Assembly (NCBI GenBank): GCA_017413105.1
Contig: JAFPVA010000153.1
Coordinates: forward strand, 1 to 34,941
DNA length: 34,941 nt
Direction of reading: 5' to 3'
From: Butyrivibrio sp.
GTDB taxonomy: Bacteria; Bacillota; Clostridia; Lachnospirales; Lachnospiraceae
How positions within the stretch are numbered: the stretch's first letter is position 1; each line of letters begins with the position of its first letter. The translations under genes and the position numbers were made by a program. The notes below the pieces were generated by a model. It saw nothing but the letters and a program-made list of their open reading frames with translations. It made no database searches and was not told the origin of the DNA. Shown here piece by piece: positions 7,231-18,369 of the stretch.

Positions 7231-10200
7231 ATGGGCAAAAGGGAGATAAAAATCACTATAAGACGACTTCTTGTAACAGTCGAGATCATAGCGCTATTTT
7301 TTGAACTTAGTATTTCACCGGGCTCTTACTATGCGACTGTTTATGCAAACGCCATGGAGGTTGAAAACACTATAGAATCTGTGCCGGAACCTTCACAACC
7401 GGCTCAGGCGGAAGAACCTTCCCAAAATCAGGAAGTTTCAAGTGAAGCACCATCCGGCGAAGAGCAGGCTCCTCCATCAGAGAGCGCGGGAGAAGGCGCA
7501 GCAGCAGAGGCAGCAGGGGATAGCACTTCCCAGGCACCACAGGATAATGGGACAAATCCGGCCTCCGGACAAGAGGGTCAGACGGATGCAGCTGCGGCAG
7601 GATCAAATGGTGAAGCAGGAAACAATGACGGCGCAGCGGCAGCAGCTACAGGCGATGCGGGAAAGACAGACGAATCTGAAACCGGAACCACAAATGAAGC
7701 TGGAAAGGCAGATGGCTCAGCAGCCGATGCTGCAGGCAATGCCGGTAAAACAGACGAAGCTACAGGCAATGTAACAACCGGACAGGAAGGAAAAGACCCT
7801 GCGGCAGCAGATGCCACAGGCGATGATAAGAACGCCGAAGGTAAAGAAGGCGAAGACAAAGAGGGTAAGGACAAGGACAAAGACGCCAAGGATAAAGAAG
7901 GCGAAGACAAGGATAAAGACAAAGACGCCGAGGACGAAGAAGGCGAAGACAAAGATAAAGAAGATAAGGAAAAAGAAGAGCTAGAAAAAGAAGAGAAAGA
8001 AAAGAAAGAGAAGGAAGAAAAAGAGAAGGAAGAGAAAGAAAAGCCTGAGCCCATGGAGGGCGAGCTTGTGGCAGAAGAAAGCTCATTAAAGCTTTCTTTT
8101 GACAAGGAAGCCGGTATTCCTGAGGGTTCTATTGTTGCGGTTTCTGAAATTTCTTCCGGTGATGAATATGATGGTCTCATAGGCACAGCCCTTGGCACAG
8201 CAGGACTTGCATCCGATCAGGTTGCAGGTCTTAAAGTGCTGGATATATCCATTATGAGCGGCGAAGAGAAGGTAGAGCCTTCAGGCAGTGTCTATGTGGA
8301 AATAAGCGCAGCGGATCTCTTTGGAGAAGGCAGGCTCTATTCAGATGATGAAGTAAAAGTCGTACATATCGATGGCGAAAACGCAGAAGTCCTTGAGTGC
8401 AGCGTAAATTCCGGAGAAGGAGACGCCTCCGGGAACGTAACAAAGAAGGCAGAGACTGTCGGCTTTAGCACTAATTATTTTTCAGCCTTTGCATTCATCC
8501 AGGTCATTAGCGGAAAGAGCGCCAGCGTAAATAACGGCTCCTATGAGATCACTGCAAATTATGATAATGTCTCTGGAATCCCTGCAGGAACTGAGTTTGT
8601 AGTAAATGAAATCGGGCAGGATAGCGACAGCATGGCGGGGTACCGGGATGGATGCGCTGCCCTCTTTGAAGGCTCGGATTATACATTAGAAGCCATAAGA
8701 GCATTTGACATAAGCTTTGTAGACAGAGAGTCGGGAGACCACTATCAGCCGGGAAAAGACATCTCTTTGTCCATAAGGCTTTTGGATAATGGCTTCATTG
8801 AAGGCGCAGAACCAAAGCTTATCAGATTTAACGGACAGGCTGAAGGCGTAGATGCAGGCTTTGAGGATCAGGGCGTGTCCTTTGGAACAAGCGCCCTTAC
8901 AGTTTATGCCATCGCGCAGTTTAGCGTAAAGAGAACCCAGACTGCAGGTGATGGCAGTACATATCTGGTAACAGTAAACTACGACAGTGTTTCCGGAATA
9001 CCGGAGAATGCTGTACTTTCTGTGACTGAAATTACTGAAAATTACGACAGTTATGCGGAAACATCTTCCGGAGAGCTTGGTGAAGCCCCTGAGAATCTGG
9101 AAGTTGTCAGGGCCTTTGATATCAGCTTCAGAAACCCTGAGACAGGAGAAGAATATCAGCCAACCAAGGGCGTTTCTGTATCCATTGACATATTTGATGA
9201 AGACCTTGAAGAACGAAGCGAAGACCTGGATATACTCCATATCCACGGCGATAATCAGGAGCAGGCTGAGGTTGTTGACAGCTCAGTAAATGACGGCGTT
9301 GTTGAGTTCGAGGCTGAAAGCTTTTCAGTATTCGTCGTTGTCAGAAAAGTTATCGAGCAGACCCTTACTGCATCAGATGGAAAAGAGTACCTTATCACAG
9401 TATCTTTTGACAGTACTGCAGGAATCCCGCAGAATGCTCAGCTTATAGTAAACGAGATCAAAAAGGGCGAAGAGCTCTACGAGCAGTATCTGACAGAAGG
9501 TCTTGAGACAATTGATGTATTAAAAGAAGAGGTTTACGTTGCCAAGGCCTTTGATATTACCTTAAAAGATCCTGAAACAGGCACAGAATATCAGCCAAAT
9601 AAGGATGTCCACGTAAGTATCCAGCTTCTTTCTGACGAGCTTAAAGAAGAGAGTAGGACGGATGTTATTCACTTTGGCGATGAGACTACGGTCATGGAAA
9701 CTGTAGTTGATGGGCAGACAATACAGTTCCAGACAGATGGTTTCTCAATCTATATTGTAATCAATCATGAAAGCGGAGAAGTAGTGGCTCCAAGAGTAGA
9801 GTTCCACTTTATAGACCGCTACACTGATGCACAGTATACAGCCGGGATAGATGTTACTCAGGCTACAACGTCAACTCCGTATAACTTTGTAAACACACAT
9901 GGCGAGTATCAGACAACCCAGATCCTTGCTAACGGCGAATCACTTGAACTTATAAATGATCCGGCGAATGTGGAGATTGAAAGTATTGAAAAGTTCTTCT
10001 ATGGCTGGTATGTAGTTGACATGAATTCAGATACCAGCGCTATCAATGCTGCTACGGGTAAATATGAAGGAGAGATTAATTTCAACTGGCCAGACAGCCC
10101 CAAGCAGGTTAAATTTGAACAGGCAATCGCTCTTACAATGCAGGATGGCAACGGCGATGGAATGCTCACTGTGGGAGATACACTGCAGTGGACAATAAAT

Positions 10201-18369: not shown

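Follow-up and report, generated by a model that had tools for sequence, protein, structure and literature searches.

What is a protein of 3712 residues doing in the middle of a type IV pilus operon, and does it belong to the pilus at all? The question is raised by a 34,941-nucleotide stretch of Butyrivibrio sp. DNA (contig JAFPVA010000153.1 of assembly GCA_017413105.1; hereafter the window), in which a single unbroken forward-strand frame that we call GIANT (7231..18369 from an ATG; alternatively 7219-18369 from a GTG, giving 3716 residues) follows the pilus machinery genes. The operon encodes, in order, PilB, PilT, PilC, PilD, PilM(N), PilO, GIANT, X272, V119, W191, H755, an LRV-repeat protein, a PilA-type pilin and a YfhO-type membrane protein. 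A first-pass annotation made from the window alone had described one intact gene of about 3712 residues, tightly spaced between pilO and four minor-pilin-like genes, and this description holds, as the frame is unbroken and the gaps are 26 base pairs (bp) from pilO to the GIANT ATG and 81 bp from GIANT to the next gene. From comparison with related loci, we consider it likely that GIANT corresponds to the effector half of a giant modular minor pilin, made as a non-pilin protein, secreted separately and docked on the tip complex with H755 as its partner. Such a protein probably serves the pilus as a very long tip adhesin, detached from the pilin. The idea of a detached half of a single giant pilin is the central point of this work and is invisible to a reader of the window alone. 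Directly supported are the gene order, the homology, the split point, the body exchange, the co-inheritance and the lack of an anchor.

To place GIANT among its relatives, the genus was searched with PilM, which matched 31 of 79 genomes at E<=1e-5, and 21 strong matches (E<1e-90, the window's included) carried an orthologous locus. We annotated the other 20 loci, among which the window's nearest relative is L009/L017, evidently the same genome as G226. Among named records, the PilM sequences nearest to that of the window all come from Butyrivibrio. In class A, a free giant lies between pilO and the minor pilins and the last minor pilin, H, is short; this class comprises the window (3712 and 755 residues, respectively) and L009/L017 (4979 and 779 residues). 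Class B (n=7) lacks a free giant, and the last minor pilin is itself giant, at 2993-3845 residues. Class C (n=8, two cut by contig ends) has a secreted protein of ~700 residues followed, in the six complete loci, by a giant pilin of 2727-2817 residues. Class D (n=3) has a short H of 670-675 residues, then a secreted protein of 1247-1360 residues and another of about 560-670, while class E (n=1) pairs a giant pilin of 3119 residues with an LRR protein of 679. Every one of the 19 complete loci therefore encodes a giant pilin (14 loci) or, failing that, a free exported protein no shorter than 1247 residues (5 loci). Cultured members of this locus family show both formats: B. hungatei DSM 14810 has a free protein of 1360 residues, and Butyrivibrio sp. 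XPD2002 has a giant pilin.

The relationship between the free and the pilin-borne giants is collinear. All seven class B giant pilins contain an H755-like part, an acidic linker and a GIANT-like part, in that order and without overlap. In L039_2 (3700 residues), residues 619-933 match H755 and residues 1180-3687 match GIANT, and GIANT residues 1687-3141 align with this protein at 37.5% identity over 1494 columns (847 bits). The linker between the H and GIANT parts of the fused proteins is acidic, as is the N-terminal linker of GIANT, a low-complexity, acidic/lysine-rich segment (residues about 46-275; 7354..8043, forward strand) that resembles it. An HxGDWP motif closes the H part in 7/7 fused giants (residues 805-1008) and is found in H755 at residue 741 of 755; H755 terminates where the fused form enters the linker. 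The collinear match in all seven proteins, together with the shared HxGDWP end point, indicates that the window has as two genes what class B has as one. An extra module carried on a pilin is seen for the homologous body in the seven class B species and not for GIANT itself.

A frameshifted, collapsed or chimeric assembly of a true giant-pilin gene could in principle produce two genes from one, and the source is a fragmented draft (4.45 Mb in 327 contigs, with a contamination estimate of 7.28%; the window is one contig of 34,941 bases) in which this gene is repetitive. We nevertheless regard such an artefact as very improbable. The GIANT frame is intact, GC content at third codon positions (GC3) is even along the gene, and the window contains no N. 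Moreover, GIANT lies upstream of X-V-W-H with its own signal-like start, an order unlike that expected from a frameshift in a pilin-first gene, so a simple frameshift is no explanation. The same gene order is found in L009/L017, from an uncultured Butyrivibrio, and its recurrence in this second, independent assembly speaks against an assembly artefact, as does the compatible arrangement in G075, a genome from another genus.

The bodies of these proteins, compared on the sequence after the last GIP repeat, do not follow the free or fused format of their carriers. Body type I (about 1200 bits) comprises the free giant of the window and the fused ones of G180 and G220; body type II (about 680-1130 bits), the free giants of L009 and G075 and the fused ones of G173 and G168; and body type III (about 510-1090 bits), the fused giants of G170, G169 and G230. 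Scores between the groups are at most 272. Body types I and II each occur in both formats. Taken as a block, GIANT residues 1689-2540 are 49% identical only in the giant pilins of G180 and G220.

The free-giant format is also shared across a genus boundary. In G075, a free giant comes after PilO on contig C5 and is cut by the contig end; on contig C41, the genes for X, V, W and a short H come after the C-terminal end of such a giant. Both giant pieces resemble the giant of L009. PilM(N) of G075 is 30% identical to that of the window; its H is 54% identical, equal to the value between L009 and the window (54%). In a tree of X+V+W (397 columns), the window, G075 and L009 are grouped with ultrafast bootstrap (UFBoot) support of 100, whereas a tree of PilC+PilM(N)+PilO (945 columns) places G075 outside Butyrivibrio, also with UFBoot 100; V is missing for class B in these data, and PilC is partial or missing in many rows. 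Approximately unbiased (AU) tests agree, as the X/V/W tip data reject a monophyletic Butyrivibrio (p-AU 7.8e-6) and the machinery data reject a class A clade (p-AU 6.1e-5). In conflict with the machinery phylogeny, the tip cassette with its free giant is found in two genera. Tetranucleotide composition correlates at r 0.94 between the two G075 contigs, vs 0.26-0.30 to the window, and this agreement argues against contamination. Directly behind the first tip set on contig C41 (L088, 4757-13711) lies a second V/W/H set (H of 797 residues), followed by an LPHTG-anchored GIP protein of 1628 residues.

What kind of protein is GIANT? Its N terminus (7231..7353, forward strand) resembles a signal peptide, with possible cleavage at YANA/M as judged by eye and hydropathy. 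No N_methyl match is found in GIANT and no Gly precedes a pilin-like Glu in its start, leaving it without a recognizable prepilin leader. With its signal-like start, its lack of a prepilin motif and its seat between pilO and X272, GIANT appears to be an exported non-pilin encoded beside minor pilins. The signal-like starts of the window (7231-7353) and of L009 (7789-7920) each have a Glu within the hydrophobic core (LVTVEII and LVLAEVL, respectively) that resembles pilin Glu5; without a preceding Gly, this residue could be due to chance or be a relic of a prepilin leader.

The linker is followed by four GIP repeats, at residues 299, 453, 593 and 735, which confirm the number given by the first-pass annotation (E 5e-39 to 4e-53 with repeat profile A3, a profile built partly from these four). 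The body (9787..15200, forward strand) then carries eight GW motifs (residues 929-2660), all in a [FIVLY]xGW context. The count of eight InlB-like motifs is as first reported, but the label GW-type proved loose: the motifs fit the Listeria-Bacteroides (InlB B-repeat) unit, not the wall-binding GW modules of InlB, and families of such SH3-like GW modules gave no match anywhere in GIANT at E<=0.1. In a Pfam scan of the whole protein that listed matches at E<=0.1, Flg_new (the Listeria-Bacteroides repeat; residues 1918-1951, 1.6e-8) and SpaA (PF17802; residues 3598-3692, 1.3e-8) exceeded the cut-off, and DUF7601 matched two stretches below it (4e-4). The C-terminal region (15286..18366, forward strand) comprises these sub-threshold DUF7601-like stretches and the SpaA domain. 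Since only one SpaA match exceeds the cut-off, only one Cna-B/SpaA-like domain is firm by Pfam, and the tail of several such domains that had been proposed reduces to that one. Beyond SpaA, Flg_new and DUF7601, the same whole-protein scan returned nothing, in agreement with the earlier statement that no PilY1-like beta-propeller is present. A search of the genus for PF05567 matched 0/79 genomes, but the control matched nowhere either, so this search proves no absence.

The same domains raise the possibility that GIANT is an independent surface or matrix adhesin, held non-covalently on the wall and co-transcribed with the pilus genes by chance. All three domain types, GIP, B-repeat and SpaA, are characteristic of wall proteins; GIP also recurs widely in surface proteins of the family other than GIANT (97/299 sampled family genomes at E<=1e-6), and the LPHTG-anchored GIP protein of G075 adjoins a second minor-pilin set. 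Anchoring, however, largely separates the two kinds of protein. Among 29 stretches around GIP matches in the genus and the family (L080-L108), 19 of the 22 GIP open reading frames with a visible C terminus are anchored (14 LPxTG-like, 5 by a transmembrane segment only), whereas the 20 pil-locus giants, free or pilin-led, all lack LPxTG-like motifs and hydrophobic C-terminal stretches (hydropathy maximum 1.24 over 17 residues). GIANT itself has a proline-rich C-terminal tail with no LPxTG-like motif in the last 70 residues and a hydropathy maximum of -0.34 over the last 45, and no transmembrane segment was found in it, internal or C-terminal. GIANT thus shares GIP repeats and SpaA-type domains with the LPxTG-anchored GIP/SpaA surface proteins of Lachnospiraceae and lacks their wall or membrane anchor; likewise, it has the SpaA domain of sortase-anchored Cna-B/SpaA adhesins without their LPxTG-type signal and C-terminal transmembrane segment. 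Together with the pilin fusion in sister species and the co-inheritance with minor pilins against the machinery tree, these differences make an independent adhesin unlikely.

Within the genus, the GIP region of the window matches 8 other genomes strongly (E<=2e-27), in every case in pil-locus giants, and a further 5 weakly (3e-9 to 1e-5), while the B-repeat region matches many unrelated large proteins (38/79 genomes). Homologues lying mostly outside pil loci, which the first-pass annotation had named as evidence against a pilus role, are a feature of the GIP domain alone, most of whose occurrences are in other proteins, and not of the whole protein. The association of GIANT with the pilus therefore appears well supported by comparison, as type IV pilus operons hold the closest homologues of its body, which seven species build covalently into a minor pilin; of the pilus-associated adhesin first proposed, this half stands, and the adhesive function is suggested by the domain types. 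The three anchorless GIP proteins outside pil loci all come from G053. They are giants of about 4090-4400 residues with similar C-terminal tails (contig C1, about 54-97 kb; L080, L081, L128, L129), a methyltransferase-like gene sits between two of them, and they are possibly alternative tip proteins for the short-H operon on the same contig. In place of LPxTG, the GIP proteins of four of the stretches (L100 and L103, plus L106 and L107 from the genome of the window) terminate in VLGARRxxTxDxTN, a transmembrane segment and a KR-rich tail, which may serve Butyrivibrio as a further surface-anchoring signal.

If H and the body are two halves of one unit, a short H is expected with a free giant and a giant H without one. 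We examined this complementarity after adding loci of the family found via H755 (16/397 genomes) and via PilM. A free large exported protein is present in 6/8 short-H loci vs 1/24 complete giant-H loci (Fisher p 2e-4), a p value that is only indicative, given that the counts are phylogenetically non-independent, the sample is non-random and two class D loci (G182/G200) are near-duplicates. Individual loci also weigh against this complementarity and against the proposed reading of GIANT: G315 has a giant H pilin (2673 residues) as well as a protein of ~3290 residues next to pilM; G053 has a short H in an operon without a giant, with its three unanchored GIP giants tens of kb away on the same contig; and in G245 the short H is followed by a shorter open reading frame without a signal. 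To these must be added the breadth of the GIP domain in the family described above, the location of the G075 free giant and tip genes on two contigs, and the GC3 of GIANT, which is 0.40 compared with 0.45-0.55 in most of the operon. Finally, no conserved docking segment was found, as the N-terminal regions of the window, L009 and G075 giants are low-complexity and unconserved beyond the signal-like start.

The putative docking partners are encoded immediately downstream on the forward strand. X272 (18451..19269) is pilin-like and lacks Glu5, as read from its start G/ASITFALLLF, making it a candidate PilK-like tip cap; Glu5 is also missing in 18/18 counterparts examined. V119 (19279..19638; start GESIAETLVAL) is a candidate PilI-like minor pilin with a very weak XpsI match (0.05), and W191 (19638..20213) is a ComGF/PilJ-like minor pilin with an N_methyl match and a ComGF match of 1.7e-5 that is nonetheless below cut-off. 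H755 (20216..22483) is a modular minor pilin (N_methyl 4.8e-6) that matches the N-terminal part of the fused giant pilins and consists of a pilin helix (residues 12-65), an Ig/Fn3-like domain (about 199-318) and a GLUG beta-helix (about 316-741) ending in HYGDWP at 741. Among the four pilin-like proteins, Pfam N_methyl exceeds the cut-off solely in W191 and H755. H755 has the leader and pilin helix of a modular pilin, and GIANT does not.

From this arrangement a mechanism can be proposed. In sister species, a single chain runs from pilin through an Ig-like domain, GLUG beta-helix, acidic linker, GIP repeats and body to SpaA; the window and two other species have this chain divided within the linker, and the distal piece starts with an apparent export signal of its own. 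By analogy with PilHIJK, X272 (as the Glu5-less cap), V119, W191 and H755 would form the tip complex, on which exported GIANT could dock via H755 or X272, the most likely site being next to the point at which the H755 beta-helix ends and the fused form is joined. Extension by PilB and retraction by PilT would then carry GIANT as a long, flexible tip tether able to bind a surface, a fiber or another cell, and exchange of bodies between free and fused carriers would change binding specificity while the machinery stays.

The pilus might instead serve as a secretion piston or carrier whose minor-pilin tip pushes GIANT out and frees it, as proposed for TcpF on TcpB. GIANT is anchorless, encoded in the operon and flexible in its N-terminal region, and the parts of PMC9565799 drawn on here describe a secreted, operon-encoded protein, TcpF, that hooks its flexible N terminus onto a minor pilin. 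Such release is, in our estimate, quite unlikely here, as seven sister species have a homologous body covalently attached to a pilin, a better fit to permanent display, and a monoderm has no outer membrane that needs to be crossed. Whereas TcpF/CofJ of the type IVb TcpB/CofB systems resemble GIANT as secreted, operon-encoded proteins with a flexible N terminus, the N-terminal regions of the three free giants have no conserved hook beyond the signal. GIANT is, moreover, presumably far longer than TcpF or CofJ.

Display by a docked GIANT has parallels in other systems. Modular type IV pilins of the Streptococcus sanguinis PilB/PilC type bear an effector module covalently, and the available part of PMC8179133 proposes one grafting strategy for modular pilins and PilC/PilY1 alike; the most extreme modular pilin it mentions has 860 residues and 12 repeats. 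H755 and the giant pilins of its relatives are likewise effector modules displayed by a minor pilin; in contrast, GIANT has no pilin part, and the fused relatives reach 2993-3845 residues, or 4537 in G026. The G026 protein (L023, 4433-18046) is the largest pilin seen, and its four GDWP motifs give the impression of a repeated H-module end. In diderms, according to the sections of PMC10191384 consulted, PilY1 docks non-covalently. GIANT resembles PilC/PilY1 of diderm type IVa pili as an exported non-pilin beside minor pilins that would be expected on an H-I-J-K complex with a Glu5-less cap, and differs in lacking a PilY1 beta-propeller match, in its other domains and in its monoderm host. The relevant portion of PMC6916266 lists late-stage biogenesis components of diderms, PilC1/PilC2 among them, as missing in monoderms. 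As a non-pilin, apparently exported protein beside a Glu5-less minor pilin, GIANT is a plausible monoderm counterpart of PilY1, and the best reading is that it works like PilY1 but is not PilY1. Kil (Tad) pili of Myxococcus, for which PMC12075869 describes one genome with four tips, similarly let a single machine bear interchangeable tip complexes of minor pilins that have extra domains; these are of the Tad type, and a free giant partner is not described in the part of the article considered.

Monoderm reviews, in the portions relied on, describe no PilY1-like tip protein, and our literature search found no description of covalent and free formats of homologous bodies within one genus. On balance, we lean toward a broader picture in which monoderm pili of Lachnospiraceae carry interchangeable giant tip effectors, built either into a minor pilin of up to about 4.5 thousand residues or as a secreted non-pilin of up to about 5 thousand that docks, with the tip cassette of free giant and minor pilins moving between genera independently of the machine and bodies swapping formats; on this view, GIANT would be the first non-pilin tip effector known from a monoderm type IV pilus. 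The findings also suggest that bacteria abundant in the gut and rumen trade tip specificity in the form of a cassette. The naturally divided giant pilin offers a direct route to how non-pilin tip proteins dock, with free/fused species pairs ready-made, and poses a physical question, as ~3400 structured residues, very roughly at least 100 nm if extended by our estimate, must pass the wall ahead of the pilus.

Upstream of GIANT, family matches on the forward strand identify a PilB-type extension ATPase (35..1834), the platform protein PilC (2921..4144), the prepilin peptidase PilD (4141..4953) and PilM (4983..6620), whose C-terminal end matches PilN weakly. The PilT-type retraction ATPase (1839..2891, same strand) belongs to the T2SSE family and is called PilT from its position and length, and the PilO-like protein (6617..7204, same strand) is assigned by position, conservation in relatives and a weak T2SSM match below cut-off (5.5e-4). 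A GGTGGGG stretch lies just 5' of the GIANT ATG. Between 6900 and 24600, two forward terminator-like sites were found, a weak one at 8858 inside GIANT and a strong one at 24522, 3' of pilA. The 81-bp gap between GIANT and X272 contains a possible hairpin, GCAGCCG...CGGCTGC (18390-18416, identified by eye), without a T run, which might act in RNA processing or stability.

The family also has a second type IV pilus operon, more distantly related, that ends in a different large protein of about 1740-3260 residues (L028-L034, L060, L061, L063, L064, L070 and L072) and holds a large PilX-like gene of about 790-1020 residues. Pfam DUF5057 was found in all three of the end proteins tested by Pfam (L028, L031 and L033), and six of the later loci contain BLAST relatives of these three; this protein may be another pilus-associated giant. 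The protein of ~3290 residues in G315 (L130/L120, contig C275, 115 to about 9999), just upstream of pilM, has repeated NAGTYKVY-type units.

Downstream of H755, an LRV/HEAT-repeat protein without an obvious signal (22525-23847) precedes the PilA-type candidate major pilin (24063..24458, forward strand, family match) and is kept in L017 at 65% in the equivalent position. Adjoining pilA is a YfhO-family membrane protein (24512-27376), PgfM1/PgfM2-like below the NCBIfam cut-off, and in G433 (L127) a YfhO gene also adjoins the giant pilin; a possible role of these proteins is glycosylation of pilins or giants.
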